A stretch of 23,080 nucleotides of DNA from a bacterium (GTDB lineage Bacteria > AUK180). The stretch is from the NCBI GenBank assembly GCA_030622125.1, contig JAUXGM010000014.1, positions 1-23,080 of the forward strand, in the 5' to 3' direction. Below the pieces are notes generated by a model. That model was given only the letters and a program-made list of their open reading frames with translations. It ran no database searches and was not told the origin of the DNA. This document shows, piece by piece, positions 2,246 to 20,470 of this stretch; the stretch's first letter is position 1, and every line of letters starts with the position of its first letter. The position numbers and the translations under genes are program-made.

Positions 2246-2703
2246 CCTCCCGATATTCCGGATGCACCACCGCCAAAACCTCTGAAATCTCCTTTTGAAC
2301 CGCCAAGCCCACTTTCATAATTTGAATAAAAAAAGACATTCTTATTTCTTTTTATGTCAAGGGTAAGCGGAAATGACATTATTAATCCGCCAAATAGAGC
2401 AATGGAAGTATTTGTCTGCGCAAAACCAAATAGTAATGACAGGAGAATAAAATTTAAGCCGAATCTATATATGAACTTGGTATTTCGTAAAAAGCTATTT
2501 AACGAAATAATGGAAAAAAGGAGGAAAAAGACAAAAAAACTCTTTATTTTTTTACTTTTGAATATATGAATAACAGGATTTTTTATTAAAGGAATAGTAA
2601 CCTGCTCCTTTTTTAAATGATTGATACTCTGTTCCATTTCAACGGCATATATACTTATGATGATCGTAAAAAAAAATAATAAGAACAAAATCCTCTTAGT
2701 CAT
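2239..2703 (-). CDS. Small membrane protein with YgcG-like Gly-rich C-terminus
   Basis: The 154-residue protein has a signal peptide (residues 1-20, ending SIYA), a basic linker, membrane segments at about 53-70 and 78-115, and a glycine-rich tail (129-154) ending FGGGASGISGGW. That tail matches the C-termini of YgcG/TPM-domain membrane proteins, which typically end in a glycine-serine run and a tryptophan. The roughly 120-residue TPM domain normally found between the signal peptide and the membrane segment is missing here; only about 30 residues occupy that place. The gene has its own promoter at 2709-2737 and overlaps the next gene by 7 bases. Function is unknown. Confidence 0.7.
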   Translation of the reverse strand: MTKRILFLLFFFTIIISIYAVEMEQSINHLKKEQVTIPLIKNPVIHIFKSKKIKSFFVFFLLFSIISLNSFLRNTKFIYRFGLNFILLSLLFGFAQTNTSIALFGGLIMSFPLTLDIKRNKNVFFYSNYESGLGGSKGDFRGFGGGASGISGGW

Positions 2704-2708
2704 AAGTG

Positions 2709-2737
2709 ATTATATAATTTAATTTGATTTAATTCAA
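2709..2737 (-). promoter_or_regulatory. Sigma70-type promoter, leaderless geometry
   Basis: On the minus strand, -35 TTGAAT (2737-2732), a 17-base spacer, and consensus -10 TATAAT (2714-2709). Five bases separate the -10 from the ATG at 2703, so the predicted transcription start falls at or within a base or two of the start codon. No Shine-Dalgarno can fit between them. Confidence 0.7.
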
Positions 2738-2747
2738 ATTTTTCTTG

Positions 2748-3569
2748 TTAATCCGATACCTTTTTATTTATTTTTACTTTTCCTTTTGTTTCAGGAAGTA
2801 CCTTTTCCAACATATGTTCCCAACGATAAAGATAGCTCTCATAGGACAATCTTGAACCGACACCTTCTATTTTTTTAAGGTGCCGGAGCATTTTTATTGC
2901 GATCTTTTGCCGATCTTCATAACTGAGATTAGATATATATTTTTCAATTATTGCTTGCCTATAGAATTTATCACCTCTTCCCTTAATCAAATCACTGATA
3001 TAAACTTTTAACTTTTTGTGATTATATTCCAATGGTGCCGGGGCACCCCATTCATCTAATTTAATATGTTCAACTAATTTCTCTATTTTCTTGATAGGGA
3101 TCATATCTTGGGAACATTCTTTCAGAGATTTTGCTAATTTATTTTTTTCTGCCTCCGAAACGATCTTTTTTTCATTTCCCTTTTCATTAATAATGCGCAG
3201 AACACTGTTACCTCCCCTCATTTGAAAAATTATATTTTCCCCGCTCCAAATAAGTTTAATATGCGGTGGTATGCCGCCGGAGAATTTTTTAATTTCTGTC
3301 AATTTTTTAATTGAAGCGGTTTTAATATCAAAAAGATATAGGAAAATTGTTTTATAACGGGTTTTTACTCTTCCACCGTCGGGGAATCGGGCAATTCCCT
3401 TCGGACATTGATAGATATGGCAATATCTTGCAAATACTACTTTGTTATTATCTGTATTATATGCACCGCCCGTGAAATAGATGCTGAAAGTTACATGTTT
3501 ATAGTGAAAACAACTTAATGAACCTGATAAAATAACAGTAAGAATAATGAGAAATAGTAACCGTTTCAT
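2748..3569 (-). CDS. Hypothetical lipoprotein
   Basis: The N-terminus is a type II signal sequence with lipobox LSSC-like context (SGSLSC, lipidated Cys20), so the protein is probably anchored in a membrane. Residues 25-130 contain short beta-rich segments resembling WD40/TolB-like blades (for example a FARY strand, LYLFDIKT near 78-85 and LIWSGENIIFQ near 106-116), but too few to call a propeller. The C-terminal 100 residues are helical and charged. It follows the 25-codon ORF by only 4 bases and is the last gene of that unit; the next gene downstream has its own promoter. I do not recognise the family. Confidence 0.7.
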   Translation of the reverse strand: MKRLLFLIILTVILSGSLSCFHYKHVTFSIYFTGGAYNTDNNKVVFARYCHIYQCPKGIARFPDGGRVKTRYKTIFLYLFDIKTASIKKLTEIKKFSGGIPPHIKLIWSGENIIFQMRGGNSVLRIINEKGNEKKIVSEAEKNKLAKSLKECSQDMIPIKKIEKLVEHIKLDEWGAPAPLEYNHKKLKVYISDLIKGRGDKFYRQAIIEKYISNLSYEDRQKIAIKMLRHLKKIEGVGSRLSYESYLYRWEHMLEKVLPETKGKVKINKKVSD

Positions 3570-3573
3570 ATAG

Positions 3574-3651
3574 TTATCTCACTTGATCTTCTGAAATATC
3601 CCATGTGTTTGGATTGGCTTTCTTGTTGATAAAAAAGTTAAACTCTTTCAT
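3574..3651 (-). CDS. 25-residue ORF coupled to the DUF2007 gene
   Basis: The frame opens with MKEFNFFINKKANP and ends ISEDQVR before TAA. Its ATG overlaps the stop of the DUF2007 gene as ATGA, and a good Shine-Dalgarno GGGAG lies 6 bases upstream of the ATG. The lipoprotein ATG follows 4 bases after its stop. The start signals are better than expected for a chance frame. It may be a real small protein or a coupling device that carries ribosomes to the lipoprotein gene. No known family is recognised. Confidence 0.45.
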   Translation of the reverse strand: MKEFNFFINKKANPNTWDISEDQVR

Positions 3652-3878
3652 TTTGTTCTCCCATCAATGATTTCTTGATATATTTCCAATATTCTATTTT
3701 TACAATCCGAAGGAGCTTCAATACAACCCCATCCTTTTTGAATTTGGAATATACCATCATAGGCAGAATCATGATATGACTTTAATAAATATGGAATATT
3801 TTCTTCTTCAAGAATAGATGTTAATATCTGCGCTTCTATTTCATTATTTATCAATAATATTTTTTCATATTTTTCCAT
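3648..3878 (-). CDS. DUF2007 domain protein
   Basis: The 76 residues match the small DUF2007 family: an opening strand YEKILLINN, a helix EIEAQILTSILEEENIPYLL in which the protein scans over two layers, a central SAYDGIFQIQKGWGCIEAP segment, and a final helix CKNRILEIYQEI. The family has no established biochemical function; it is sometimes described as a putative signal-transducing or prevent-host-like small domain. A good Shine-Dalgarno (GAGG, 6 bases before ATG) supports the start. The preceding 24-codon ORF ends 14 bases inside this gene, and the next small ORF starts in its stop codon. Confidence 0.75.
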   Translation of the reverse strand: MEKYEKILLINNEIEAQILTSILEEENIPYLLKSYHDSAYDGIFQIQKGWGCIEAPSDCKNRILEIYQEIIDGRTK

Positions 3879-3939
3879 TTTTTACCTCATTTGTTTTTCC
3901 AACTTGTTCATTATTTATTTTGATTTTAAACCTTTTCAT
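3865..3939 (-). CDS. 24-residue leader ORF read from a leaderless promoter
   Basis: The frame begins MKRFKIKINNEQ and stops with TGA inside the start of the DUF2007 gene (overlap 14 bases, other frame). Its ATG lies exactly 5 bases after a -10 hexamer, the same geometry as at dsbD, the SPOR gene and the YgcG-tail gene, whose starts are well supported. If leaderless starts are used, this is the first codon on the message. It could be a small protein, or an upstream ORF setting expression of DUF2007 by termination and re-initiation. It could also be a chance ATG in an ordinary 5' leader. Confidence 0.35.
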   Translation of the reverse strand: MKRFKIKINNEQVGKTNEVKNGKI

Positions 3940-3944
3940 ATTTA

Positions 3945-3973
3945 ATTTTACCACTTTTAATCCCAAAAATCAA
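3945..3973 (-). promoter_or_regulatory. Sigma70-type promoter for the DUF2007-lipoprotein unit
   Basis: On the minus strand, -35 TTGATT (3973-3968), 17-base spacer, -10 TAAAAT (3950-3945). The ATG of the 24-codon ORF follows after 5 bases; the DUF2007 ATG is 66 bases from the -10 and has its own Shine-Dalgarno. Confidence 0.6.
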
Positions 3974-3991
3974 ATTTTCTATAAAATATTT

Positions 3992-4120
3992 CCTGTCATT
4001 CAGAAGGAGCCCCGTTCTAATACGGGGTAAATTCCATGACTGTGAAATCCATTCCTGTCCGTCATACTGAGGACCTTGCCGATTATTCAAACCCCAATTT
4101 TTCGGGGAGAATCTATCTTT
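3992..4120. repeat. Remnants of a dispersed GTCAT...GAATC-type intergenic repeat
   Basis: Two tandem degenerate units are visible. Each starts CCTGTCAT or CCGTCAT followed by a CTGAGGA-like or CAGAAGGA segment, carries a CCCC...GGGG hairpin, and ends in GAATC or a variant. The hairpins are 4010-4027 (CCCCGT / ACGGGG, perfect, loop 6) and 4092-4107 (CCCC / GGGG arms). The second unit ends GAGAATCTATCTTT. Similar GTCAT-to-GAATCTA repeats are known between genes in many unrelated bacteria. The open minus-strand frame here looks like a chance reading of the repeat. It lies in the 372-base gap between the divergent DUF2007 and dsbD promoters. Confidence 0.5.
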
Positions 4121-4216
4121 GAAGTTTCCCCCGTATCCGATTTTCATCAGGACAGGCCAGATACGAGAATCCGTAGTTAAAAAAATTCTATTCTCTGAAA
4201 ACCAAACCTTTATATC

Positions 4217-4245
4217 TTGACAAAACTAAAATTTTAATGTATTAT
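4217..4245 (+). promoter_or_regulatory. dsbD operon promoter, leaderless geometry
   Basis: Perfect -35 TTGACA (4217-4222), 17-base spacer, -10 TATTAT (4240-4245, five of six consensus). The dsbD ATG begins 5 bases after the -10, so transcription should start at or next to the ATG. There is no Shine-Dalgarno. Confidence 0.75.
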
Positions 4246-4250
4246 AAACT

Positions 4251-6008
4251 ATGAAAAAGTATATTTTCACATTATTAACGGTTATGTTTGCGGTAACTGT
4301 TTTTGCTGCATTTAACCCAGCTCCAATAAGTCAATTTTCAATTTCCTCTTTAAATGTAAACAAAAACGGGATATATACAATGGAGTTGGATTATACAATT
4401 GAAGAAGGTATCCATCTCTATATTACCTCCAAGATAGCAAAAAAAATAAAATTTATATTTGCAGATGGAGTAAAAATAGAAAAGCTAACTTATCCTTCAT
4501 TGATAAAAAAAGGAACAGATACCTATATATCCGGCAGTGGTAAGATCATAATAAATCTATCCGGGAAATTAATGGAAAGTGGAAGTTTTAAGGTTACTTA
4601 TCAGGGATGTTCGGAAGACGGTATCTGTTATATACCGGAAACCGTGGATGTTTCATATCAAAATATCCCTAATAAGTCTGGTAAGAAAGAAAAACTGGGG
4701 GTCTCCGGACTACTAAAAAAGAATATAAAAAATCCGATCTTGGCGATATTACTTGTTTTTTTTGCCGGCATCTTGACAAGTTTGACACCTTGTGTTTATC
4801 CAATGATACCGATAACGATATCCTACTTCGGGAAAAGAGGCGAAGGTCAAACTATAAAGTCAAATTTTGTCGGGACATTGTTCTATGTGCTCGGACTTGC
4901 TTTAACATACACATCATTAGGTATAATTGCCGGATTGACCGGCTCTGCTTTCGGCAGTATCACCAATAATAGATATGTGCTCATTGTATTTGCAGGGCTG
5001 TTTTTTATTATGGCTTTTATGATGTGTGATTATATTGTTCTTAATGGCGGAACATTAATGAATAGTGCAACTCAAAATACACGCTCAAAAAGATCATTTT
5101 TTCAGCCGTTCCTTCTTGGGCTTTTGACCGGACTGATCGCTTCACCCTGTATTGGACCTGTTGTTCTTTTCCTGCTGGCGCTTATAATTAAAACCGGAAA
5201 TATTCTTTATGGTGGGATTTTAATGTTTTTCTTTTCACTCGGGCTCGGCTTACTATTTATTATCCTGGGGACATTCTCGGGAGCGATCAATAAACTTCCC
5301 TCCTCCGGAAATTGGATGGAAAAAGTAAAGGTCGTATTTTCTATCTTAATGGTATTGGTGGCAACTTATTTTCTTAATATCTCACTGAAGGGATTTTCAG
5401 TTATCGGCGCCAATTTTATTTCTTACGGCATCGGCATTATGTTCATTCTCTTTTTTCTCGGCTTTTTTGATAAGAAAAAATGGGATGATGATAATCCGTT
5501 TAAGAGGAAAAAGAAGGAGATGCTTCATTTTATTCTTTTTATTGTTCTGCTCTTCGGTATCGGTTTGTTCTTAAAAGGAATACTATCCAACAATGCTTCC
5601 TTGTCGGGCATTAAAAATGAGATCGTAAAAAATGAACAACTCCATTGGTATAATGCTCTCGATAAAGGATTAGAAAATGCTAATGAACATAACCGATTGA
5701 TATTTGTTGATTTTGGAGCAGACTGGTGTGTGATGTGCCGTGAATTTGAAGAGCTTGTAAAAAGGGATACTGAAATTATAAGGGAATTAAAAAAATATAC
5801 ACTCGTAAGATTGGATTATAATAAGAATAAAGAACTCGCAAGGGATGAGTTTAAAGTATTGGGACTTCCAACCTTCCTTATACTTGATAAAAATGCTAAT
5901 GTTATCAAAAGAGAAACAGGATTTAAAAATGTTACCGATCTAAAAAATAAGATTATAGATGGGGACGGTGGTTCAAATACCTCGGATATAAATATAAAAA
6001 GGAGATAG
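4251..6008 (+). CDS. dsbD: Thiol:disulfide interchange protein DsbD
   Basis: DsbD carries reducing power from cytoplasmic thioredoxin across the inner membrane to periplasmic thiol proteins. All three redox modules are present with their cysteine pairs. After a signal peptide (1-20) comes the periplasmic alpha domain with GCSEDGIC (Cys120/Cys126). The polytopic core runs from about 162 to 443, with LTPCVYP (Cys181) and ASPCIGP (Cys300). A C-terminal thioredoxin-like gamma domain has DWCVMC (Cys493/Cys496) and a GLPTF cis-proline loop. The length of 585 is normal. The ATG is fixed by the signal peptide, although the promoter leaves no leader. It heads an operon: the next gene starts 2 bases after its stop, and the next gene's Shine-Dalgarno lies within its last codons. 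Confidence 0.95.
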   Translation: MKKYIFTLLTVMFAVTVFAAFNPAPISQFSISSLNVNKNGIYTMELDYTIEEGIHLYITSKIAKKIKFIFADGVKIEKLTYPSLIKKGTDTYISGSGKIIINLSGKLMESGSFKVTYQGCSEDGICYIPETVDVSYQNIPNKSGKKEKLGVSGLLKKNIKNPILAILLVFFAGILTSLTPCVYPMIPITISYFGKRGEGQTIKSNFVGTLFYVLGLALTYTSLGIIAGLTGSAFGSITNNRYVLIVFAGLFFIMAFMMCDYIVLNGGTLMNSATQNTRSKRSFFQPFLLGLLTGLIASPCIGPVVLFLLALIIKTGNILYGGILMFFFSLGLGLLFIILGTFSGAINKLPSSGNWMEKVKVVFSILMVLVATYFLNISLKGFSVIGANFISYGIGIMFILFFLGFFDKKKWDDDNPFKRKKKEMLHFILFIVLLFGIGLFLKGILSNNASLSGIKNEIVKNEQLHWYNALDKGLENANEHNRLIFVDFGADWCVMCREFEELVKRDTEIIRELKKYTLVRLDYNKNKELARDEFKVLGLPTFLILDKNANVIKRETGFKNVTDLKNKIIDGDGGSNTSDINIKRR

Positions 6009-6010
6009 AA

Positions 6011-7831
6011 ATGCCGGGAAGAGCAAGAATAGATATTACTAATTATAGGTATCCTATTATTTTTCTTATACTTCCGTTTTTGACCTTTTGCAGTCTATTT
6101 TTTTATGGATGTGCAGATTCCTCCGGGAAATTTATATTTACCCTTTTATTAAGTTTATATATACTTACCGTTATTCAATTTTTGATCAAAAAAAAGAGTT
6201 TCTTTCTAACGGGTTATCTAAAACTTTTTATTCTTTTTTCAGTATTTTTCATCATATATCTGTTTGTTAATTCACTGAATGTAAGTTCTGTTCATCATGA
6301 TTCATTAGAAGCATTGCCTTATTATATAATTCTTTTAGTCGGATTTTTTTTCCTGATAGAGATTGAAATTGATAGGAATTATATTTGTACAATTATCTTT
6401 CTATTAGGAATCTTTGAAGTAATTATTGCAATTTTTAAATCGGCTTTTTTAAATGGTGGTTTTACCGGTACATTTTATAGTCCGAATATCTTTGCGGATT
6501 TTTTGATCCTTTCATTTTTCTCCGGTATCGCAATCCTTAACTATTATAAAAGAGGCTTGAAAATCGCAATATTTTTATCACTTTTTATTTTTGTAATTAT
6601 GATCCTATTGACCGGTTCGCGAGGTGGTTCGGCGACTTTAATTGTAGCAGCAATACTCTTCAGTTTAAGATGGAAACGATTTTTGCTATCATTTATAATA
6701 CTTCTTTTCGCTGTTACGATTGTGTTTACCGTAAATAATCCTTTAAAAGAAAAGGTCTTTTCGGGAGTAAAAAAAGATCCTTTTTTGTGGGAAAGAACGA
6801 ATATTTGGAAATCTTCTCTAAAAGTTATAAAAGAAAATCCCATTTTCGGGGTTGGTGTCGGAAATTATAAGTATGATGTATTAAGACATCGTTATCCATC
6901 AAAGCATTATTTTGCCAAATATTCCCGGCGTCCGGCACATCCTCATAATGAATACCTATACCTGATCTCCGAGATAGGTCTATTCGGTTCTCTACTGCTT
7001 ATCATAATGATAATATTGCTTTTGTTTTACTATAAACCCGGATATGAGTTATATGGAATAATTGGTATCTTGGTTCACTCATTTGTAAATGATTCCCTTG
7101 CAATACCCGGGATACTCTTCCCTTTTTTGCTGCTTTTTGCATCAGGTATAAAAATTAAATCCATCTTAAAAAAGGAGATAAGTATCAAAAGATCGTTTTA
7201 TATTTATAGCCTTGCATTCTTTTTTCTGCTCATTTCCTTTGATATGCTCTTTAAAATAGAAGAAATATTTATTGCATCGAAAAGATATGGTAAATTCATA
7301 GATAATGCCACACTCTCCTATCAATTACCTTATAATCAATTTGTAACTTATGGACTGATCTATAATAGAACAAGAGCAAATAATTTACAAAAACTTTATA
7401 TTGATTATCTTGATAGATCATTGAAAAGAAATCCTTACAGTTCCACTGCAAGACAAAAATCGGCAGTTATTTTATCGCAATATGCAAGATCCGATGAATT
7501 TATCGAAACATTGAACCAGGAGATAGAAATGCTTCTATATTATGATCCGTATAATGTCTTTAATTATGAAACCGTCGGAGATATTTACTCCAAACTCGGT
7601 AAAAAAGAATTAGCAATGAAATACTATGAAGATGCTATTGCATTGGAACCGAATTTTGCAGTTGCAATCTATAAACTCGGGAAATTGCGCAATAGCAGGA
7701 GATTAATAAATAAAGCAAAAGAAATTTACAGGGAATACTTTTTTAGGTTTTCGCAAACAATTGATGGCAAACCATTAAACAGATATGAATACAATATACT
7801 TAATTATAAAACGGTTGGAGGGAAACTATGA
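6011..7831 (+). CDS. O-antigen ligase-like (Wzy_C) membrane protein with TPR tail
   Basis: Proteins of the O-antigen ligase/polymerase superfamily join or polymerise undecaprenyl-linked glycans on the periplasmic face. About ten or more membrane segments fill residues 13-400. Family motifs are TGSRGG (201-206), RTNIWKSSLKVIKENPIFGVG beginning near 262, and AHPHNEYL (309-316) followed by the S-E-x-G-L motif (Glu321). The Arg and His in the first and last of these correspond to residues needed in WaaL-type ligases. Residues 520-590 form TPR-like helices (VGDIYSKLGKKELAMKYYED), as in some glycoprotein ligases and PglL-like enzymes. Sequence alone does not separate O-antigen ligase, Wzy polymerase and protein O-oligosaccharyltransferase. 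AGGAG upstream supports the ATG. It overlaps the SLBB gene by ATGA. Confidence 0.82.
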   Translation: MPGRARIDITNYRYPIIFLILPFLTFCSLFFYGCADSSGKFIFTLLLSLYILTVIQFLIKKKSFFLTGYLKLFILFSVFFIIYLFVNSLNVSSVHHDSLEALPYYIILLVGFFFLIEIEIDRNYICTIIFLLGIFEVIIAIFKSAFLNGGFTGTFYSPNIFADFLILSFFSGIAILNYYKRGLKIAIFLSLFIFVIMILLTGSRGGSATLIVAAILFSLRWKRFLLSFIILLFAVTIVFTVNNPLKEKVFSGVKKDPFLWERTNIWKSSLKVIKENPIFGVGVGNYKYDVLRHRYPSKHYFAKYSRRPAHPHNEYLYLISEIGLFGSLLLIIMIILLLFYYKPGYELYGIIGILVHSFVNDSLAIPGILFPFLLLFASGIKIKSILKKEISIKRSFYIYSLAFFFLLISFDMLFKIEEIFIASKRYGKFIDNATLSYQLPYNQFVTYGLIYNRTRANNLQKLYIDYLDRSLKRNPYSSTARQKSAVILSQYARSDEFIETLNQEIEMLLYYDPYNVFNYETVGDIYSKLGKKELAMKYYEDAIALEPNFAVAIYKLGKLRNSRRLINKAKEIYREYFFRFSQTIDGKPLNRYEYNILNYKTVGGKL

Positions 7832-8271
7832 ACTTAAAATATCTATGTTTTTTACTTGCATTTCCAATTGCGATTTTGGGATATTCACAATCAATGGAGA
7901 TAGGTCGAAACGATAATCTTATAATAACCGTTAATATATTGGGACAGGTAAAAAATCCCGGGGAATTCAAGATTGAATATGGCACGAATGTGATCCAGGC
8001 TATCTCAAAGGCAGGCGGATTCGGCGATTATGCCAATATGAAAAACATTAAAATCGTTCGTATAAAAGATGGCAAAAAAATAATAATCGAGGTCAATGTA
8101 AAGAAATTTTTTGATAAAAATAATGTAAAAGTAGATATCCCCATACTTGAAAACGGGGATGTTATAATGATAGGTAAGAATGTAAAAAGGGTATGGGCGT
8201 CATTTGTTACATTTGTTTCCCAAATTGCTATTATTATCAATGTGATCTATTTAATTTCACTAAGTAAATGA
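7828..8271 (+). CDS. SLBB-domain exported protein with C-terminal membrane segment
   Basis: A signal peptide (1-21) is followed by an SLBB beta-grasp domain at about 32-116: GQVKNPGEF (39-47), then VIQAISKAGGF, strands KIVRIKDGKKI, and DIPILENGDVIMI. SLBB domains bind ligands in polysaccharide export proteins of the Wza type. This protein lacks the Poly_export domain and is only 147 residues. It ends in one hydrophobic segment (about 122-144), so it is probably a membrane-tethered single SLBB domain. Placement between an O-antigen-ligase-like gene and a PHP phosphoesterase points to surface glycan handling. The start is coupled to the previous gene through ATGA. Confidence 0.8.
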   Translation: MNLKYLCFLLAFPIAILGYSQSMEIGRNDNLIITVNILGQVKNPGEFKIEYGTNVIQAISKAGGFGDYANMKNIKIVRIKDGKKIIIEVNVKKFFDKNNVKVDIPILENGDVIMIGKNVKRVWASFVTFVSQIAIIINVIYLISLSK

Positions 8272-8272
8272 T

Positions 8273-9043
8273 ATGATCCCGTATACCGACAATCACTTTC
8301 ATTCACTCTTTTCCATAGATGGCAGATCTAATCTCTACACAATGGTAGAACGGCAATACCAGATCGGTTTAAGATATATTACAAATACGGAACATTATGA
8401 CGCTGAACCGGATGATAAGGGATTTGATTATTACAACTATGAAAAAATTCATTCTACTATTGATGAACTAAATCGGGACTACCCTATGAAAATATTTCAT
8501 GGAATTGAGGTTACCTTTCAGGAAGAATATTTAGAACGAGTGGAAAGTTTTCTCAAAGATCATTCCTTTGATCTTATAATCGGTGCTGTTCATTATATTG
8601 ATCACATCCTAATAAAAAATTGGGCTAAGATCAATGATGAATTTGAAAAATATTTCGATCTTGTAATAAAATGTTCACAATGGAAAAAAATGGATGTTAT
8701 CGGACATATTGATATGATAAAAAAATATCGGGAAGATTACAATGAAAAAAAATACCTGAACATGATAGAAATTGTATTGAAGAACATCATTAAAAATAAG
8801 AAGGCACTCGGTATCAATACATCCGGATTTAGACATCTCCCGAAGGAGCAATATCCATCTGAAACAATATTGAGAATGTACAGGGACCTGGGAGGAGAGC
8901 TTATCTCTATCGGCTCGGATTCACATCATCTTTCACATATAGGGATCGGTTACAATGAAATATATCTTCTATTAAAAAAATTGGGATTCAAAAAATACTT
9001 TTATTTCATAGATCATCAGCCGATTGATTGCAAAATCTTATAA
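8273..9043 (+). CDS. PHP-domain phosphoesterase (histidinol-phosphatase-like)
   Basis: The PHP metal site is complete in sequence: DNHFH (Asp6, His8, His10), TEH (His41), GIE (Glu79), AVH (His107), IGH (His145) and GSDSH (Asp216, His218). The overall pattern and the 256-residue length fit monofunctional HisJ/HisK-type histidinol phosphatases, but PHP enzymes also include the CpsB-type phosphotyrosine phosphatases of capsule operons. No other his genes are present, while glycan-type genes lie directly upstream, so the substrate is open. It starts 1 base after the SLBB stop and ends the dsbD operon. Confidence 0.8.
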   Translation: MIPYTDNHFHSLFSIDGRSNLYTMVERQYQIGLRYITNTEHYDAEPDDKGFDYYNYEKIHSTIDELNRDYPMKIFHGIEVTFQEEYLERVESFLKDHSFDLIIGAVHYIDHILIKNWAKINDEFEKYFDLVIKCSQWKKMDVIGHIDMIKKYREDYNEKKYLNMIEIVLKNIIKNKKALGINTSGFRHLPKEQYPSETILRMYRDLGGELISIGSDSHHLSHIGIGYNEIYLLLKKLGFKKYFYFIDHQPIDCKIL

Positions 9044-9054
9044 ACATATTGAAG

Positions 9055-9233
9055 TTTGGTTGTAATGACTTTTTCCCCTCCGTTTCAGATTTTCAAAAAA
9101 TACTTGACCATAAATATCCGTTGCTAAAATTCAATAACTCACTTCGTTCAAACAAATTGTAATTTTTCCTACGGAACGCAACTCCTATTCATTAAATCTT
9201 CAAATGTCGTTTAAAAAGCCATTTACAACCAAA
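9055..9233. repeat. MITE-like element, copy 1
   Basis: The ends are inverted repeats: 9055-9074 (TTTGGTTGTAATGACTTTTT) pairs with 9213-9233 with one base gap and one mismatch. The interior 9078-9228 is repeated at 20554-20703 with about 7 substitutions and one single-base indel over 150 bases. There is no coding capacity. This is the structure of a short non-autonomous element. A target duplication is not clear. The element fills much of the 351-base gap before the nucleoside kinase gene; beyond it lie a small palindrome and a promoter. Confidence 0.7.
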
Positions 9234-9241
9234 AGCCCTCA

Positions 9242-9276
9242 GGACACATTTTTCACTTTGCTCAAAGTATATCCCT
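9242..9276. repeat. Small palindrome similar to the left-end REP-like units
   Basis: GGACACAT opens the unit, ACTTT / AAAGT (9255-9259, 9264-9268) forms the inner hairpin with loop GCTC, and ATATCCCT closes it. The layout (GGACACAT, CTTT, AAAG, AT-TCCC) mirrors the hairpin at 145-189. It is degenerate and could be coincidence. Confidence 0.3.
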
Positions 9277-9336
9277 ACATTTTTTTACATATTGGATTCT
9301 AAAAAAAGTCCAAAATATAGAAAACACAATATTGAT

Positions 9337-9365
9337 TTGAAATTATAGATCATATTTGATATAAT
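9337..9365 (+). promoter_or_regulatory. Promoter of the nucleoside kinase gene
   Basis: -35 TTGAAA (9337-9342), 17-base spacer, consensus -10 TATAAT (9360-9365). The expected start near 9372 gives a leader of about 23 bases containing AGGAG (9380-9384), 10 bases before the ATG. This is a conventional led start, unlike dsbD or the SPOR gene. Confidence 0.75.
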
Positions 9366-9394
9366 GTTAATTATAATTCAGGAGTTTTAAGAAA

Positions 9395-11041
9395 ATGGTG
9401 AAAGTAAAAATTAACGAAAAAGTCTTTGATATTGAAAAGGGAACCACTGTAAACAGTATCATCGGAATGGCAAAATTAAAACCGAAATATCCAATATTGG
9501 GAGCATTTCAAAATAATGAAATTGTTGAATTGGAAGAAAAAATACGGGTGAATTCTTTAATAAGACCGGTGGATATTACCTCCCCGGTCGGATTAAGAAT
9601 ATATTCCACCTCACTTTCTTTTGTAGTAATTGCTGCTGCAAAAAAGATATTTCCAAAGGATACGCTTATTGTCCAGCATTCTCTTTCGGGTGGACTTTTT
9701 ATGGAATTTGAGAAGAAAAAATTTCTTAATTTTAATGATATTAAGAAATTAAAAGAGAAAACAACAAAGATCATAAAAGGGAACTTAAAGATAAAAAAAG
9801 AGAGGATTGATATTGAAGAGGGAATAGAATACTTTAAATCAAGGAAACAGATAGATAAAATAAATCTACTTAGAAATATCTATACCAAAGAGATCACTAT
9901 TTATTCATTAAACGGTATTAAAGCATTTTTTTATGGTCCTCTGGTTCCGGCAACCGGAATGCTTAAATTGTTTGATCTTTTATACTATCCGGGTGGAATG
10001 GTGCTTATGTTCCCCAATCGTTATTCTCCAGATAAAGTTCCCGTATTTAGGGAGCAAAAAAAAATATTCAGTGTTTTCCACGAATTTGAGGAATGGCAAA
10101 ATGTTTTAGATGTTTCGGATGTCGGGTCGTTAAATGAGGCAATATACAATAAATCTATCTCACGATTAGTAAAGATATCGGAAGTGATCCATGAAAAAAA
10201 ATTCTCATATCTTGCCGATAAGATAAAAGTAGACAAAAAAATAAAATTAGTCCTTGTTGCCGGACCGAGTTCATCGGGAAAAACTACATTTGCAAAACGA
10301 TTGGCAATACATCTTCAAGTGATCGGTATCAAAACGGCAACAATTTCACTTGATAATTATTTTGTTTCAAGAGAGAAAACACCGATTGATAAAGACGGCA
10401 AACATGATTTCGAACATATTGATGCAATTGATATCGAACTTTTCAATGAACATCTGATAAAACTAATAGAGGGTGAAGAAATAGAATTACCGGAATACGA
10501 TTTTAGATCCGGGAAAAGAAAATACACGGGGAATAAAATGAAGTTGGATAATGACCAGATTATCCTGATAGAAGGTATTCACGGCTTAAATCCGAAATTA
10601 ACCCATTATATACCGAATATTATGAAATTCAAGATATATGTGAGTGCTTTAACGCAGCTCAATATAGATAATTATAATAGAATTCCGACTACTGATTCCC
10701 GGCTCATAAGAAGAATGGTTCGTGACAGTAAATTTAGGAATTATACTGCCGAAAGCACATTAAAAAGATGGCCCTCGGTAAGAAAAGGCGAAGGGAAATG
10801 GATATTCCCATATCAAGAAAATGCTGATGAAATGTTTAATTCCGCTCTTATATATGAGCTTGCGGTTTTAAAACCTGAGGCAGAACCGCTTTTAAGGGAA
10901 ATAGGACCTGAGTCGGAGGTATATTATGAGGCAAAACGGATATTAAATTTTCTAAATTATTTTACTGCTCTGAAATGTAATGAAATACCTCCAACCTCCA
11001 TTTTAAAAGAATTTATTGGAAAAAGTGCTTTTAAATATTGA
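9395..11041 (+). CDS. Nucleoside (uridine-type) kinase with TGS and ThrRS-like SAD domains
   Basis: Three modules are visible. Residues 1-60 form a TGS beta-grasp domain, as at the N-terminus of threonyl-tRNA synthetase. Residues 65-230 resemble the ThrRS second additional domain (SAD): AAAKKIFP at 80-87 and YYPGGMVLMFP at 197-207. The histidines that serve editing in ThrRS appear replaced (YSTSLSF at the HxxxH region). Residues 280-500 form a uridine kinase/phosphoribulokinase P-loop domain with GPSSSGKT (290-297), SLDNYF (318-323) and LIEGIHGL. Such fusions are annotated as nucleoside kinases in several phyla; the purpose of the tRNA-synthetase-like half is not established. Length 548 is typical. 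It has its own promoter. Confidence 0.88.
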   Translation: MVKVKINEKVFDIEKGTTVNSIIGMAKLKPKYPILGAFQNNEIVELEEKIRVNSLIRPVDITSPVGLRIYSTSLSFVVIAAAKKIFPKDTLIVQHSLSGGLFMEFEKKKFLNFNDIKKLKEKTTKIIKGNLKIKKERIDIEEGIEYFKSRKQIDKINLLRNIYTKEITIYSLNGIKAFFYGPLVPATGMLKLFDLLYYPGGMVLMFPNRYSPDKVPVFREQKKIFSVFHEFEEWQNVLDVSDVGSLNEAIYNKSISRLVKISEVIHEKKFSYLADKIKVDKKIKLVLVAGPSSSGKTTFAKRLAIHLQVIGIKTATISLDNYFVSREKTPIDKDGKHDFEHIDAIDIELFNEHLIKLIEGEEIELPEYDFRSGKRKYTGNKMKLDNDQIILIEGIHGLNPKLTHYIPNIMKFKIYVSALTQLNIDNYNRIPTTDSRLIRRMVRDSKFRNYTAESTLKRWPSVRKGEGKWIFPYQENADEMFNSALIYELAVLKPEAEPLLREIGPESEVYYEAKRILNFLNYFTALKCNEIPPTSILKEFIGKSAFKY

Positions 11042-11066
11042 AAATATTTTATTTTAATGGTATAAT
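11038..11066 (+). promoter_or_regulatory. Promoter of the SPOR gene, leaderless geometry
   Basis: -35 TTGAAA (11038-11043), 17-base spacer, consensus -10 TATAAT (11061-11066), then 5 bases to the ATG at 11072. The -35 contains the TGA stop of the nucleoside kinase gene (11039-11041). The whole 30-base gap between the genes is promoter. Confidence 0.75.
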
Positions 11067-11071
11067 AAATA

Positions 11072-11890
11072 ATGAAAAAATATTTTTTATTTGCATTTAT
11101 TATTATTTTTAGCTTTTTTATCTTTGCCGATGATTATTCCATTCAATTCGGGTCATTTAAAACTAAGGTGAGAGCAAACAAAGCAATTCAAAATATGAAG
11201 GGAAAAATAGATACGACAAATTGTTATATAGTTAGAGCGGATCTCGGGGAAAAAGGGATCTGGTACAGGGCAAAATACGGCAGATTTCAGTCAAAAGAGG
11301 AAGCAATTAAAATATTGGAAGAGTTTAAGAAAAAAAATATCGACTCGATATTAGTAAAATGTAAAGAAATTAAACCGAGTAATATAACTACATTGCCGGA
11401 CACAAAAGGCAAGATCAAGTTTGCCGCTAACAATACTAATTATGATACGAAGAACTTGAAGATAGTAAATGAAACCCTTGATTTTAAGATTAAGATACTA
11501 AACAAGCTGTGGATAAGGGCGGTACAGAAAAGAAATATTATTAAAATAAACGAAATGATACCGAAATATAAAAAACTGTTGAATCAATACTATGATAGTA
11601 ACAACATCTATAAGGTATACTATATGATCGCTCATTCATTTTTACAATTAAAACAGGAAGGAAATGCAATTATTTATCTTGACAAAGCCTTTGATACCGC
11701 ACCCAAAGAGGAAAAATCAGCAATTTTATTTGAAAAAGGTTATGTTACCTATATTTTTGTTCAGAATTATGATAAGGCAATAGATATTTTTAAGAGGGTC
11801 AGTATTGAATTTCCAACAAGCCCATGGGCGCTTGCAGCTCAAAAGAATATCAATCAGATACTAAAATATAAGGTTTACAATATAAATTAG
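11072..11890 (+). CDS. SPOR-domain periplasmic protein with TPR-like C-terminus
   Basis: A signal peptide (1-19, FIFA/DD) precedes a SPOR domain at 22-97: YSIQFGSFKTKVRANKAI, GIWYRAKYGRFQSKEEA. SPOR domains bind peptidoglycan lacking stem peptides, usually at division sites. Residues 145-265 are helical with TPR-like repeats (AHSFLQLKQEGNAIIYLDKA; NYDKAIDIFKRVSIEFPTSPWA), similar in style to BamD/YbgF-type periplasmic scaffolds. The start is fixed by the signal peptide, and the ATG lies 5 bases after a consensus -10. It heads a run that continues through the DUF4388 gene and recA. Confidence 0.82.
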   Translation: MKKYFLFAFIIIFSFFIFADDYSIQFGSFKTKVRANKAIQNMKGKIDTTNCYIVRADLGEKGIWYRAKYGRFQSKEEAIKILEEFKKKNIDSILVKCKEIKPSNITTLPDTKGKIKFAANNTNYDTKNLKIVNETLDFKIKILNKLWIRAVQKRNIIKINEMIPKYKKLLNQYYDSNNIYKVYYMIAHSFLQLKQEGNAIIYLDKAFDTAPKEEKSAILFEKGYVTYIFVQNYDKAIDIFKRVSIEFPTSPWALAAQKNINQILKYKVYNIN

Positions 11891-13156: not shown

Positions 13157-13165
13157 GAGGATTGA

Positions 13166-14191: not shown

Positions 14192-14802
14192 TACAAAATA
14201 AATTTTTTAGTTTTAGAAAAAGGATCTTCACTTATTGTATTTTATTTGTTGTGCTTGTTGCATTTATTTTATTGATGGGTTTAATGAAAGGCTACAAAAA
14301 CTCCCCTCTTTTTGTAAAGGTTATTTCCATTTCTTATTTTGCAGAATCAAATTGTTCAAATGTATCGATCAAGATAAGGCTTACTTTTAAGGCATCCGGC
14401 GGAAAAGCGAAGATCCCGTTCTCATTTCCGTTACTACTACCGGAGGATGTAAAGCTAAACAAGGTTTATGTGGACTATCCTTACAAAACCCCGGATCCTG
14501 TTCTTATTAGAGAAAATACTGTTTATTGGAAGGGATATCAGCCGGAAAAGGGAAAACTGGTAACTTTTACCATAAGATATGATTATCATTCTAATACCGA
14601 TATGATAATACTGCCGTTTAAAAAAGTTGGATTTTTTAATGTAAGAAAATCTTTATGCGATGCCCACATAATACTCAATGAGAAAATATTTGAATTCAAT
14701 TGCAATTATGAACTATCATCAAGGCAGAAGGATTTTAAAACCTACCTTTCCTATAATGGAAATTTAACCGGTACAGATGATAATCTAACATTAAAATGGT
14801 AA
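14188..14802 (+). CDS. Membrane-anchored protein of unknown function
   Basis: A short basic cytoplasmic end is followed by one membrane segment (about 14-33). The rest (34-204) is predicted outside the cytoplasm and is rich in beta-type alternation ([18 protein letters not shown]). It carries cysteines at 54, 157 and 169 or close to them. No family is recognised. It is coupled to recA by ATGA and ends 3 bases before polA, so it is cotranscribed with DNA repair genes, although it looks like an envelope protein. Confidence 0.65.
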
Positions 14803-14805
14803 TCT

Positions 14806-17325
14806 ATGAAAAAAATTCTCTACCTGGTTGATACATATTCTATTATTTTCAGAGCTTACTATGCTATTCCGGCTCTTTATACAAGCAGCGGTTTTCAAAC
14901 CAACGCAGTTTTTGGAGTGATCAAATCGATCATTAAATTGAGGGAGAAGTTCAACCCCGAATTTATGTGCGCAGTTTATGATAGTATTGGAAAGACATTT
15001 AGAAAAGAAATTGCAGAGGACTATAAAGCAAATAGAGTAAAAGCACCCGATGATCTAAAAAAACAATTTCCAATAATAGAAAATATTGTCAAAAACTTTG
15101 GTATACCATCGATACGGATTGAGGGGTATGAAGCCGATGATGTTCTTGCCGCAATCACTAAAAAATTAAAAGATAAGTTTGATGAGATCGTAATACTTAC
15201 AGGAGATAAGGATCTTTTTCAACTTATTGATGACAGGGTTGCCATCTTCGATCCCAAATACAATAAATGGTATCATAGAAAAGAAACTTATGAAAAATTT
15301 GGTGTTTGGCCTGAACAGATAAAGGATTTTTTATCACTTGTCGGTGATGCATCCGACAATATAAAGGGTGCTCCCGGGATTGGGAAAAAAACCGCTGCAA
15401 AACTTCTAAATGAATACACCAATCTTGATAATATCTACATTAACAAAGAAAAGTTAGGCAACGGCATACAGAGATCATTAGAAGAATTTGCAAAATACAA
15501 GGATGTTTCGGTAAAACTTATAACAATGAAAACCGATCTTCCAATAAATGGTTCAATGGAATATTTTGGTATTAGTGAACCCGAACATAACAAATTGATC
15601 GAAGAATTTCAAAATTTAGAGTTTCACTCTCTTATAAAGGAATTACATTTAAACCTACCGACTTCTTTTATTGAATTTCTGCCCATAGAAAAATTTAAAC
15701 GAACGGATATCATATTTTTTAAGATTATTGATGACAAGGTCATTGCCTTAAATTCTAATGGCACAGTATCTATCTTTGAACTTTTTCAGTTTGAATTTGA
15801 TGCCAATTCAACCTACATCTCTTATGATATAAAATCCGATTTTAAGTTCCTAATTGAGAATAATATTTTACTCCCCAAAAAATATTTTGATCTTCTCATT
15901 GCTCATCACATATTGAAGGGGGGGAAGAAGATCCTTTCTTATGATGATTTAATTATGGATTACCCCGTTTCCAATTTAATGCAATTTAAAGATAAAATAA
16001 ATCTTGATATAAAAATATTGGAAGAGATCAAAAAATTGTATCACATATCACAGATATATAAGGAGATGACAACATATCAAACATTTGAACTTATGTATGA
16101 AAAGGTTCTGAAACCGATAGAATTACCCCTTATACCTATACTTGCAAATATGGAATTAAAAGGAATTAAAATAGATATGGATATTTTTGGATCTGTCAAA
16201 AAAGAATATCAAAAAATGGCGAAGGACCTTGAAAAAGAGATCATTGAACTTTGCGGTGAACCGTTCAATATAGATTCACCGAAACAACTTGGGCAGATTC
16301 TTTTTTATAAACTTGACCTGCCGATCATAAAAAAGATGAAAACAGGTCCATCAACGAACAACAGTGTTTTAAATGCCCTTATCAAAACAACAAAAAATGC
16401 CACACATTTTCAAATATTAAAGAGCATTATCTCTTACAGAGAGATCGCAAAACTATTAAATACTTATCTTGTCGGATTTGAGAAGCATATTACTCATGAA
16501 AGTCATAAGATACATACAACATTTTACCAATCGGTAACAGCGACAGGTAGGTTATCATCTGAAAACCCAAATCTTCAAAACATACCCATAAGAAGTGAAA
16601 AGGGCTCTATAATGAGAAAGATGTTCATCCCTTCAAAGGCAAATTATTCCCTTTTATCACTTGATTACAGTCAGATTGAACTCAGAGTTTTAGCTGTTAT
16701 GACAAAAGACAAAAACCTTATGGATGGGTTTAAACAGGGGCTGGATATTCATATACATACGGCATCAAAGATATTATCCATTCCCATAGAAAAGGTTGGT
16801 AAAAAGGAACGATCAATTGGAAAAACAATAAATTACGCTGTTATCTATGGAATGAGTGCATACCATCTCTCGCAACGGATGGATATTTCAATGAATGAAG
16901 CACAAGCATTTATAGATACTTATTATAAAGAATATTCAGGTGTAAAAAAATTTAAAGAGGAGCTCATAGAAGAAGCTGAAAAAAAAGGTTATGTGGAAAC
17001 ATACTTTGGAAGACGGAGATACATTCCCGAACTTCTTTCAAGAGATAAAAATATCCAAAATTCGGGGATAAGAATTGCTGTAAATGCTCCTGTTCAAGGG
17101 ACCGCAAGTGAGATCGTAAAACTTGCAATGATAAAGATCGAAGGAAAGCAATTTCCGATAGATATGTTGCTTCAAATACACGATGAACTAATATTTGAAG
17201 GTGAAACGGAACTTTTGGAAAAATACTCGTCCAGGATCGCAGAAATAATGGAAACCATTGTAAATTTTGGGGTAGATCTGAAGGTTGATTATAACATTGG
17301 AAAAAATTGGTTGGACATTCATTAA
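14806..17325 (+). CDS. polA: DNA polymerase I
   Basis: Residues 1-290 form the 5'-3' flap nuclease domain (VDTYS at 8-12, EGYEADD at 106-112, TGDKDLFQL at 132-140, VGDASDNIKGAPGIGKKTA starting 179). Residues 295-420 occupy the 3'-5' exonuclease position but lack the DxE motif; only a YDIKSDFKFL segment like motif II remains, so proofreading is probably absent. The polymerase domain is complete: TATGRLSS (578-585), motif A LDYSQIE (619-625), motif B with Arg669, Lys673 and Tyr677, and motif C HDE (792-794). Tyr677 stands where E. coli Pol I and Taq have Phe. Length 839 is close to Taq. Its TAA overlaps the coaE ATG as TAATG. Confidence 0.96.
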   Translation: MKKILYLVDTYSIIFRAYYAIPALYTSSGFQTNAVFGVIKSIIKLREKFNPEFMCAVYDSIGKTFRKEIAEDYKANRVKAPDDLKKQFPIIENIVKNFGIPSIRIEGYEADDVLAAITKKLKDKFDEIVILTGDKDLFQLIDDRVAIFDPKYNKWYHRKETYEKFGVWPEQIKDFLSLVGDASDNIKGAPGIGKKTAAKLLNEYTNLDNIYINKEKLGNGIQRSLEEFAKYKDVSVKLITMKTDLPINGSMEYFGISEPEHNKLIEEFQNLEFHSLIKELHLNLPTSFIEFLPIEKFKRTDIIFFKIIDDKVIALNSNGTVSIFELFQFEFDANSTYISYDIKSDFKFLIENNILLPKKYFDLLIAHHILKGGKKILSYDDLIMDYPVSNLMQFKDKINLDIKILEEIKKLYHISQIYKEMTTYQTFELMYEKVLKPIELPLIPILANMELKGIKIDMDIFGSVKKEYQKMAKDLEKEIIELCGEPFNIDSPKQLGQILFYKLDLPIIKKMKTGPSTNNSVLNALIKTTKNATHFQILKSIISYREIAKLLNTYLVGFEKHITHESHKIHTTFYQSVTATGRLSSENPNLQNIPIRSEKGSIMRKMFIPSKANYSLLSLDYSQIELRVLAVMTKDKNLMDGFKQGLDIHIHTASKILSIPIEKVGKKERSIGKTINYAVIYGMSAYHLSQRMDISMNEAQAFIDTYYKEYSGVKKFKEELIEEAEKKGYVETYFGRRRYIPELLSRDKNIQNSGIRIAVNAPVQGTASEIVKLAMIKIEGKQFPIDMLLQIHDELIFEGETELLEKYSSRIAEIMETIVNFGVDLKVDYNIGKNWLDIH

Positions 17326-17882
17326 TGAAAATACTTGTAACCGGGATCATTTCATCGGGAAAAACCACCTTTTCACAAATAATTGCCAATAAATTAAAAT
17401 TTCCCACTTATTCTACTGATGATATTGCAAAAAGAGTGAGAATTAGGGAAAGAGTAAATAAACAACTAATAAAAAAACTGCGATTTGATCCTGAAATAAA
17501 ACTTGACAGACAATTAAGAACGGCTCTTTGCGATGATAAGAAAAGAACAATTATAAACAAAATTATGCATCCGAAAATAAATAGAGAGTTACAGAAAATA
17601 TTGAAACACAATAGAAATTGTATAATTGACAGTCCTATACCTAAAACAATGAAGATACTCAAATTTTTTGATATTACTATTTTGATCACTGCTTCCCAAA
17701 GGATCATATTTGAAAGGATGCAAAGGCTTAATTTTGACAAACAAACAAGAGATAAGTTATTTTTAATTCACGAACAAGAATTTAAAGGAATTCGTTTTGA
17801 TTATGAAGTAATAAATGATGGAGTAAATAATCTTGAAAAAACTGCTGCTGCTATCTGCCATAATATTAACCGTAATTATTGA
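17325..17882 (+). CDS. coaE: Dephospho-CoA kinase
   Basis: CoaE phosphorylates dephospho-CoA in the last step of coenzyme A synthesis. Seen are the P-loop GIISSGKT (7-14), the STDDIAKRV segment (30-38) at the substrate-binding position, MHPKINREL (81-89) and SQRIIFERMQRL, the arginine-rich lid. At 185 residues it is slightly shorter than usual, and the PLLFE-type segment reads DSPIPKTM. The start is ATG at 17325, which overlaps the polA stop as TAATG. A TTG 18 bases upstream would add a non-conserved MVGHSL extension. Its end overlaps the next gene by 50 bases. polA-coaE adjacency is common in bacteria. Confidence 0.88.
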   Translation: MKILVTGIISSGKTTFSQIIANKLKFPTYSTDDIAKRVRIRERVNKQLIKKLRFDPEIKLDRQLRTALCDDKKRTIINKIMHPKINRELQKILKHNRNCIIDSPIPKTMKILKFFDITILITASQRIIFERMQRLNFDKQTRDKLFLIHEQEFKGIRFDYEVINDGVNNLEKTAAAICHNINRNY

Positions 17883-18846
17883 AGGATACTACTTCCCTTT
17901 TTACCCGAATAATTATATTTTTTCCGATGAATTGAATTATTTTGATGAGATCAATCTAAAATATCAACCACCGAGCGGGAAAAATATCTTTATTTCCGAT
18001 GATTATTATCTTAATAAAGAGGAAAATCTACTTGAAAAGCCTGCAAATCTATTATTATTTAAACAATCTTACATACGCAGTAACAGAAATTACTTTTATT
18101 TGAATATTAATCTTTTAAGTGGTAAATATAACGATTTCGAGGAGATTAAAAATAAATCGATTAAGCTCCTCTATGGGTTAAAGATAAGGGAAAATATTCA
18201 TTTCGGAGCAGAAGGTAATTGGTATGAGACAAGTAATGAAAATTTATTCGACTATAAAAATTCATTTTCAAGATATTTTCTTTTTTTAAATTACAGATAT
18301 AAATTGTTCTCATTTACATTGAAATACTATCTGAACGGCAACAAAAAATTTAAAAATAATTTTGATACATTTTTTACTTTTAATTTATACAGGGATATTC
18401 TCGGATTTCGGTTTTATCTTGGCAGCAATCCTGATTTTTTAGGTATCAGAAGCTACATTAAAGATATATTCGGACCAATTCAGGAATTGAATTTTGCTGG
18501 AAATGTCATAGTAAAATATCCGCCTTATATAAAAATTTACTTTTTATATCACCAGATCTTTACAAAGAATTATGATTTTGAAGTAACAATGAGCATTCTT
18601 GATAAGACTTTTTTTCAATTTTATTGGAGTGATCAGATAGAAGCGAAAAGATTGATCTTCAAATTTCCTATTTATAAGAGCTATCACATTATATTCGGAC
18701 CTGAATTTTATAATATTTATTACTTTAATTTTTCATTTATGGAAACTACCAAGCAGCATACTTTTATTATTACATTTAAACATACATTGAAAATTGATGT
18801 AAAAAGGAATTTCTCTCTATTTTTACGGTATATTTATTTTATTTAG
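17833..18846 (+). CDS. Predicted outer-membrane beta-barrel protein
   Basis: The start is TTG with GGAG (17820-17823) 9 bases upstream. It gives a clear signal peptide, MKKLLLLSAIILTVIIEG, so the 50-base overlap with coaE is probably real. The remainder is rich in Tyr, Phe, Asn and Lys with repeated 8-10-residue amphipathic strands separated by short turns (NYFYLNINLLSG, YRYKLFSFTLKYYLNG, PYIKIYFLYHQIF), and it ends LFLRYIYFI. This composition suits a barrel of about 14-16 strands, but no specific family is recognised. Its end overlaps the convergent grpE end by 8 bases. Confidence 0.65.
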   Translation: MKKLLLLSAIILTVIIEGYYFPFYPNNYIFSDELNYFDEINLKYQPPSGKNIFISDDYYLNKEENLLEKPANLLLFKQSYIRSNRNYFYLNINLLSGKYNDFEEIKNKSIKLLYGLKIRENIHFGAEGNWYETSNENLFDYKNSFSRYFLFLNYRYKLFSFTLKYYLNGNKKFKNNFDTFFTFNLYRDILGFRFYLGSNPDFLGIRSYIKDIFGPIQELNFAGNVIVKYPPYIKIYFLYHQIFTKNYDFEVTMSILDKTFFQFYWSDQIEAKRLIFKFPIYKSYHIIFGPEFYNIYYFNFSFMETTKQHTFIITFKHTLKIDVKRNFSLFLRYIYFI

Positions 18847-19402
18847 ATACGATACAATCAGCCGGTCTTATTAATTTCTCTTCTAATTTGAAACCCTTTC
18901 TAATAATTTTTAAAACGATTCCGGACTTGACACCTTTTTTCTCATCAACACCGATCGCATTGTGTATAGTATGATCAAACGGGACACCTTCCTTTTCAAT
19001 AACTCCAATTCCTTCTTCTTTAAATACCTTTATAAATTCATTATAAACCATTTCTATTCCCTTTAATGTATTCTTATCCTTTATACTTAACATTGCATAT
19101 TCAAAATGACTCAATGTATCTATAAATTTGATTAAAAATTTCCTTTTATCATTCATTAAGATCGTTGTTTGCTCTTTTTCCAAACGTTGTGATAGTCTAT
19201 TCACTTCTTTTTTGCTTTCATTCTGAAATTTTGTCAATGCCTCTCTATTCCTTTTAAGCATATTTTTATAATTTTCGATTTCCTGCTGAGATTCCATATT
19301 TTTAAAAGCAATCTCCCGCAAAAGTTTTTGCATATATTTATCCTGCTTTTGTAGTTTATTCAATTTGTTGTAAAAATATTTAGTTCTCATATCCTTATTC
19401 AT
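18839..19402 (-). CDS. grpE: Co-chaperone GrpE
   Basis: GrpE is the nucleotide exchange factor of DnaK. The N-terminal 85 residues form a long charged coiled coil (RNREALTKFQNESKKEVNRL). The C-terminal half carries the family pattern: KFLIKFIDTLSHFEYAM, GIEMVYNEFIKVFKEEGI, GVPFDHTIHNAIGV and KGFKLEEKLIRPADCIVSK. The ATG at 19402 is chosen because GGAGG lies 5 bases upstream and the hrcA stop overlaps it as TAATG. A TTG 12 bases earlier would lie in the Shine-Dalgarno. It is the last gene of the hrcA unit; dnaK and dnaJ, which usually follow, are absent. Confidence 0.92.
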   Translation of the reverse strand: MNKDMRTKYFYNKLNKLQKQDKYMQKLLREIAFKNMESQQEIENYKNMLKRNREALTKFQNESKKEVNRLSQRLEKEQTTILMNDKRKFLIKFIDTLSHFEYAMLSIKDKNTLKGIEMVYNEFIKVFKEEGIGVIEKEGVPFDHTIHNAIGVDEKKGVKSGIVLKIIRKGFKLEEKLIRPADCIVSK

Positions 19403-20436
19403 TATATCCTCCAATTATTAAATTTCGCTGTAAGTAGATTTGAGATGATCTTGGAAAAGTTCTTCATAAAATCTATATTAAAATCATACGCCATTGTCTT
19501 TGGTCCCAAAATGCCAAAAAGTCCCGTTATCTCATTATTGATCTTAAATGGAGAGGTAATAATACTTACATCCTCAAATTTTTTATCACCCGTTTCTTTC
19601 CCGATAAAAACATTTGTATTATCAATTTTAGAGACCCTTGCTATTAAGTTCTTTATCCTATCTTCAAGCGGTATATTGCATATCTCTTTTTTGTTTGATG
19701 ATATTTCAATATGGACACTTTCAAATTCCGAAATAACTCCTTTAAGTTTCATTAGGATATTTGAAGCCATATCGCTATAATTAGTAAGTTCTCTCTTTGA
19801 ATTATTAATTACATCTCCCAATTCCTTTTTAAATTCCGATAATGTTTTTCCCTCAATAAACTCATTTATAAAATTTTCCGTCATCTTCAAATTTTTATGA
19901 TTGATCTGAATGTCATTAATATAAAATATTCTGTCAAGAACAAGTCCACTTGATAAAAAGAGAAGAGTTAAAATCCGACTCTGTCCGATCTGATTAAAAT
20001 GAATCGATCTAAATCGCTGTTCGTTTATTGTTATACCAAAAGAGAATGACATTTCATTGGTAAATTTTGACATTAATTTTGACGCAATAAAAAGTATATT
20101 ATCAAGATCAACTATTCTATTTTTCAGTTCATTTCTTAAATTTTTTAGTTCAATCTCAATGTATTGATTGATGTGTATAAGATGATTTACATACACTCTA
20201 AAAGCAGAATCCGTCGGTATACGCCCACCGGAAGTATACGGCTTATACAAAAAGCCTTTCCTTTCAAGTATATAAAACATATTTCGTAATGTAGCGGATG
20301 AGCAATCAAGATGATATCTTGATTTTAAATATTTGGAACTTATCGGTTTTTTTGTATCACAGTATTCTTTTACAAGCAATTGTAAAATAAACAGTTCTCT
20401 TTTATTAAGTTGATTTTTCACTATCTTGCCGGTCAT
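19402..20436 (-). CDS. hrcA: Heat-inducible transcription repressor HrcA
   Basis: HrcA represses chaperone operons by binding CIRCE operators and is kept active by GroEL. Residues 10-65 form the winged helix (ELFILQLLVKEY, KPISSKYL, SSATLRNMFYILERKGFL), followed by the conserved TSGGRIPTDSAFRVYV (68-83) and the GAF-like dimerisation region ending in ITGLFGILGPKTMAYDF. The ATG at 20436 is chosen over the TTG at 20460, because a promoter -10 lies between the two and the extra residues do not match the family. This start is 6 bases after the -10, so the transcript is nearly leaderless. No CIRCE sequence is visible upstream. Confidence 0.92.
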   Translation of the reverse strand: MTGKIVKNQLNKRELFILQLLVKEYCDTKKPISSKYLKSRYHLDCSSATLRNMFYILERKGFLYKPYTSGGRIPTDSAFRVYVNHLIHINQYIEIELKNLRNELKNRIVDLDNILFIASKLMSKFTNEMSFSFGITINEQRFRSIHFNQIGQSRILTLLFLSSGLVLDRIFYINDIQINHKNLKMTENFINEFIEGKTLSEFKKELGDVINNSKRELTNYSDMASNILMKLKGVISEFESVHIEISSNKKEICNIPLEDRIKNLIARVSKIDNTNVFIGKETGDKKFEDVSIITSPFKINNEITGLFGILGPKTMAYDFNIDFMKNFSKIISNLLTAKFNNWRI

Positions 20437-20442
20437 AATAGT

Positions 20443-20470
20443 ATTGTATAATATTTTCAAAATTTTTCAA
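20443..20470 (-). promoter_or_regulatory. hrcA-grpE promoter, leaderless geometry
   Basis: On the minus strand, -35 TTGAAA (20470-20465), 16-base spacer, -10 TACAAT (20448-20443), then 6 bases to the ATG at 20436. TTGAAAA occurs twice in this promoter, 11 bases apart (in the -35 and in the spacer). Confidence 0.6.

Follow-up and report, generated by a model that had tools for sequence, protein, structure and literature searches.

Sigma70-type promoters phased to the start codon predict leaderless transcription beside Shine-Dalgarno initiation in a sparsely sampled bacterial lineage

Within a 23,080-nt stretch of bacterial DNA (the window), five start codons are preceded by promoter-like elements held at a nearly fixed distance from the ATG, and the same layout recurs throughout the genome. 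We consider it probable (about 0.88) that these elements are sigma70-type promoters phased to the start codon, and that leaderless transcription operates beside Shine-Dalgarno (SD) initiation. The sequence shows directly that the layout exists, peaks at a set distance from the start, is conserved in the family and is nearly confined to one class among the genomes sampled, and that SD motifs are missing from these starts.

The window is contig 1 of an assembly of 192 contigs totaling 2.08 Mb (G000, GC content 33%). Among the named genomes scanned, the closest RecA has at most 68% identity to that of G000; this distance suggests an uncultured lineage, and the bacterium was treated as such. Six other genomes of the class were compared, four of them in the same family as G000, including G003 (GC content 46.5%) and G004. 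A TGA suspected within the RecA gene of G003 proved to be only its natural stop. Sequence was read for G000 (848 kb, the 41% of the genome covered by its positional statistics), G003 (338 kb) and G004 (394 kb). Gene calling used a model of hexamer coding and selected starts without regard to upstream signals, so that start choice is unable to generate the promoter pattern; the caller is simple, and some layout ATGs differ from the true start (ndk in L176 and some G003 genes). Promoter-proximal genes were those whose upstream sequence is free of other genes for at least 40 nt, and genes at most 15 nt behind an upstream gene served as the control group.

The five window starts had been described in the initial annotation as sharing a TTGA-type -35, a 16-17-nt spacer, a TA-type -10 and 5-6 nt before the ATG, and all were recovered at their coordinates (Table 1). 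The start codons are supported by signal-peptide N-termini and orthologue alignment. A search of Pfam found no match for the YgcG-tail protein.

Table 1. Promoters and associated genes in the window, with genes at layout starts predicted to be leaderless.
Feature	Coordinates	Strand	Details
YgcG-tail gene, predicted leaderless	2239..2703	-	154 aa, signal-peptide-like N-terminus, Gly-rich tail
YgcG-tail gene promoter	2709..2737	-	-35 TTGAAT 2732-2737, N17, -10 TATAAT 2709-2714, CACTT, ATG 2703
DUF2007 ORF	3648..3878	-	own SD-like GAGG; 61 nt downstream of the predicted transcription start of the repeated element
24-codon ORF, doubtful gene	3865..3939	-	in intergenic element with at least 6 relatives in 848 kb
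Promoter of 24-codon ORF, in repeated element	3945..3973	-	-35 TTGATT 3968-3973, N17, -10 TAAAAT 3945-3950, TAAAT, ATG 3939
dsbD promoter	4217..4245	+	-35 TTGACA 4217-4222, N17, -10 TATTAT 4240-4245, AAACT, ATG 4251
dsbD-like gene, predicted leaderless in G000	4251..6008	+	DsbD_N, DsbD_TM, thioredoxin domain
SPOR gene promoter	11038..11066	+	-35 TTGAAA 11038-11043, N17, -10 TATAAT 11061-11066, AAATA, ATG 11072
SPOR/TPR gene, predicted leaderless	11072..11890	+	layout also in G003, G004
hrcA, predicted leaderless	19402..20436	-	layout also in G001, G003, G004
hrcA promoter	20443..20470	-	-35 TTGAAA 20465-20470, N16, -10 TACAAT 20443-20448, ACTATT, ATG 20436

A strict motif (TTGA, N16-18, TANAAT or TATTAT, N5-6, ATG) matches the window five times, at exactly these starts, and none of 200 window shuffles reached that count (mean 0.23, maximum 3). 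The cases could nevertheless be a chance cluster in one window, with significance read in afterwards: the looser TTGN..TANNNT form, weak taken alone, occurs 7 times, only twice the shuffled expectation of 3.3, and one of the five starts lies in a repeated element. The motif was indeed defined after viewing the cases, so the genome-wide tests carry the weight; independent tests on the genome, on its relatives and on 290 genomes refute such a cluster, to which we give practically no credence. The promoter of a five-tRNA cluster (20767-20795; region 20767-20814) is of the same type as the layout promoters, TTGACA-N17-TATAAT, and a chance ATG 7 nt past its -10 mimics the layout.

Genome-wide distances were measured from the end of the -10 to the start codon using TTGNNN-N16-18-TANNNT. 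The sharp peak at 5-6 nt that had been predicted relative to shuffled sequence is present in both G000 and G003. In G000, the -10 ends 5-7 nt before the start in 25 of 187 promoter-proximal genes (15 at 5 nt, 7 at 6 and 3 at 7), against 1.5 in shuffles, with a maximum of 5 in 200. The corresponding figure in G003 is 15 of 80, with 0.38 expected, and a -10 ending 1-4 nt before the start was found in none of these 187 and 80 genes. The excess in G004 spans 5-8 nt (11 of 119 genes at 5-7 nt and 5 more at 8 nt), and a second promoter group lies at 14-22 nt; no peak was seen among 26 promoter-proximal starts of G005. The distribution is bimodal: one set of promoters is phased at 5-7 nt, and a second, leadered set forms a hump at about 14-35 nt. 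Proteobacteria have 2 of 756 genes at 5-7 nt and more promoter matches about 25-35 nt upstream.

The phasing is also visible in base columns before promoter-proximal starts, where T reaches 0.46 and 0.54 at -35 and -34 and 0.44 at -12 in G000, and 0.42, 0.48 and 0.39 at the same positions in G003. The 5-7-nt range also takes in 34 of 137 G000 promoters and 19 of 53 G003 promoters when each intergenic promoter is matched to a called start at most 60 nt away; these rough figures include background. ATGs of tiny ORFs lie 5-7 nt after G000 promoters in 26 cases versus 10.6 per three positions, a weak 5'-AUG excess without a gene that is absent in G003.

An alternative is that the -10-like hexamers are simply an A/T-rich start context, acting as an unstructured or AU-rich translation signal, and are not promoters. 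TANNNT is common in a genome of 33% GC (7.2 expected per position for 187 genes), but the TTG box keeps a constant spacing of 17 nt, shuffled sequence fails to yield the peak, and the peak is stronger in the relative with 46.5% GC. Moreover, genes close behind another gene lack a comparable peak (6 of 361 in G000, shuffle mean 1.7 and maximum 8; 0 of 155 at 5-7 nt in G003), and far fewer matches are obtained with reversed or distance-shifted patterns. We regard this alternative as very improbable.

The layout starts have the consensus -35 TTGA(a/t)(a/t) and -10 TAtAAT, with a 17-nt spacer in 32 of 39 cases. The start is ATG in 38 of 39, the exception being ndk, whose true ATG lies downstream behind an SD. 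Counted by genome, start codons at layout starts are ATG in 26/26 (G000), 16 ATG and 1 GTG (G003), and 9 ATG and 3 GTG (G004). Counting from the A of the ATG, the -10 hexamer has its first T at -12 or -11, so that the canonical promoter frame and the gene frame coincide. In the proposed mechanism, a housekeeping-sigma promoter, with its -35 hexamer beginning near -35 and its -10 hexamer at -12 or -11, would direct RNA polymerase to initiate at, or about 1-2 nt from, the A of the ATG, yielding an mRNA without a 5' leader. The ribosome would then bind the 5'-terminal AUG directly, without SD contact. From promoter geometry we infer both where exactly transcription starts and that translation is leaderless. 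At distances of 5-6 nt, 30 of 33 G000 starts have T at -1, versus 63 of 99 at longer distances, an excess that fits a T(-1)A(+1) transcription start; the bias is weak in G004.

The same geometry could instead leave a very short leader of about 2-5 nt, with flexible start selection. Distances of 5, 6, 7 and 8 nt all occur, and sigma70 start sites are known to vary by 1-3 nt, both of which would suit such a leader. However, the most frequent distance is 5 nt, below which the polymerase could no longer reach the A, and 32 of the 33 G000 starts at distances of 5-6 nt have a pyrimidine at -1. We therefore consider a short leader unlikely, at about one chance in four, and prefer initiation at the start codon itself.

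That two initiation modes coexist, as was proposed from the window, holds across the genomes read. SD-like motifs were found at none of the layout starts (0/26 in G000, 0/17 in G003 and 0/12 in G004), an absence that is partly automatic because the -10 box occupies the SD position. They precede about 40-57% of other genes, operon-internal genes have an SD, and the anti-SD of the 16S rRNA is intact (...TCACCTCCTT). SD initiation would serve operon-internal genes together with promoter-proximal genes whose promoter is 14-35 nt away. At some G003 promoters (L183:13566, L186:4841), ATGGAGGT and a second in-frame ATG follow 7 nt on, so that a 5'-terminal AUG codon is joined to the Shine-Dalgarno of the real start.

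Orthologues retain the layout beyond what chance predicts, in 6 of 9 layout genes in G003 (Fisher p 9e-6) and 4 of 12 in G004 (0.003), among them nrdR, gpsA, the SPOR gene and hrcA. In G003 it persists at nrdR and at an adjacent gene, whose promoter sequence is almost unchanged, TTGATTTTTTTTATAC[A/G]ATATAGTATAAT. Orthologues of dsbD lack the layout: G001 and G004 have a promoter further upstream and an SD, and the G003 promoter likewise has its -10 well upstream. This gene, leaderless-type in G000 and leadered in relatives, indicates that genes shift between initiation modes.

The breadth of the layout was assessed by counting exact TTGA-N19-TANAAT-N5-6-ATG matches in 290 whole genomes representing 221 families. 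The seven genomes of the class gave 63, 61, 66, 62, 58, 43 and 28 matches, and six of them hold the six highest counts of all. The other 283 genomes reach at most 30 (G131), followed by 18 and 15, with most at 0-5; backward-pattern controls in the class gave 0-5. Shifting the ATG from 5-7 to 13-15 nt lowered the class counts from 42-98 to 15-28; the family clearly exceeds this shifted control, and G005 (64 vs 28) and G006 (42 vs 28) exceed it modestly. G131, a 1.4-Mb genome from another bacterial family, combines its 30 matches with a backward control of 0 and is the only unrelated genome of comparable density among the 283; it is possibly an independent leaderless lineage.

Two side points of the initial annotation did not survive. 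It noted that three of the five genes encode exported proteins, but such proteins are not over-represented among layout genes: the N-terminal hydrophobic fraction in layout versus other promoter-proximal genes is 0.28 vs 0.25 in G000 (11 of 40 vs 41 of 162), 0.26 vs 0.29 in G003 and 0.27 vs 0.31 in G004, and an exported-protein bias was rejected.

The 24-codon ORF, listed as a gene in its own right, is instead one copy of a multi-copy element with integrase remnants, and was dropped as a gene on the evidence of further copies and tyrosine-recombinase remnants. Copies lie at 3911-4004 (- strand) in the window and at L166:2266-2520, L126:13247-13390, L155:799-930 and L098:12591-12727, and several share the same promoter. 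The element comprises a leaderless-type promoter, a short ORF beginning MKKYKIKITK and, in some copies, remnants of a tyrosine-recombinase C-terminus; the L166 copy encodes a tyrosine recombinase end (Pfam Phage_integrase, E 1.7e-4, below the curated cut-off). It looks like a set of integrase genes that have lost internal sequence and lie dispersed as relics bearing a promoter. In the window, the element would give the SD-bearing DUF2007 ORF a 61-nt leader. A second repeat family occupies 3985-4215, in pieces of 25-75 nt that are 74-96% identical to more than 15 other places in the 848 kb.

These results extend leaderless expression, as a well-supported prediction, to an uncultured lineage that is sparsely sampled, and have a practical use in correcting gene starts: the start codon is fixed by a -10 box at -12 or -11, and gene-finding software that ignores this signal may pick the wrong start, as seen here for the YgcG-tail gene. 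Orthologue pairs of leaderless and leadered type (dsbD as against the SPOR gene and hrcA) provide natural material for the question of how initiation mode is switched. More tentatively, start-codon-phased -35/-10 promoters could be a main mode for promoter-proximal genes in the whole class, with SD mainly operon-internal. This would amount to an archaeal-like division of labour evolved in bacteria, its modes switched by small promoter shifts, a reading that we hold as possible and somewhat less than evenly likely.

Among known systems, there is a close likeness to the TA-led genes described by Zheng et al. (2011, BMC Genomics 12:361, PMC3160421), in which a TANNNT that precedes the start by about 12 nt, above dinucleotide shuffles, is read as the -10 box of a leaderless gene; such genes exceed 20% in Actinobacteria and Deinococcus-Thermus (PMC3160421). 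Here too TANNNT stands near -12 above shuffles, with its first T at -12 or -11, whereas the genome is AT-rich, the lineage is uncultured and a strong phased -35 box is present as well. Leaderless transcription has been predicted in 21.6% of bacterial species, with up to 40% of transcripts leaderless in one genome beside SD-led genes (Lomsadze et al. 2018, as cited in PMC9581028), and both types appear to share one genome here too. Leaderless starts are a minority mode in bacteria and, as predicted from these promoters, should be unusually common in this lineage. The predicted system is thus a new, strong example of a recognised bacterial leaderless class in a sparsely sampled lineage, with a mechanism that is itself already known. 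In Sulfolobus operons, distal genes are SD-led while single and first genes are leaderless (cited in PMC3160421). The concentration of the layout in promoter-proximal genes and of SD in operon-internal genes resembles this rule; unlike in Sulfolobus, the promoter here is of the bacterial sigma70 type, and many promoter-proximal genes keep a leader.
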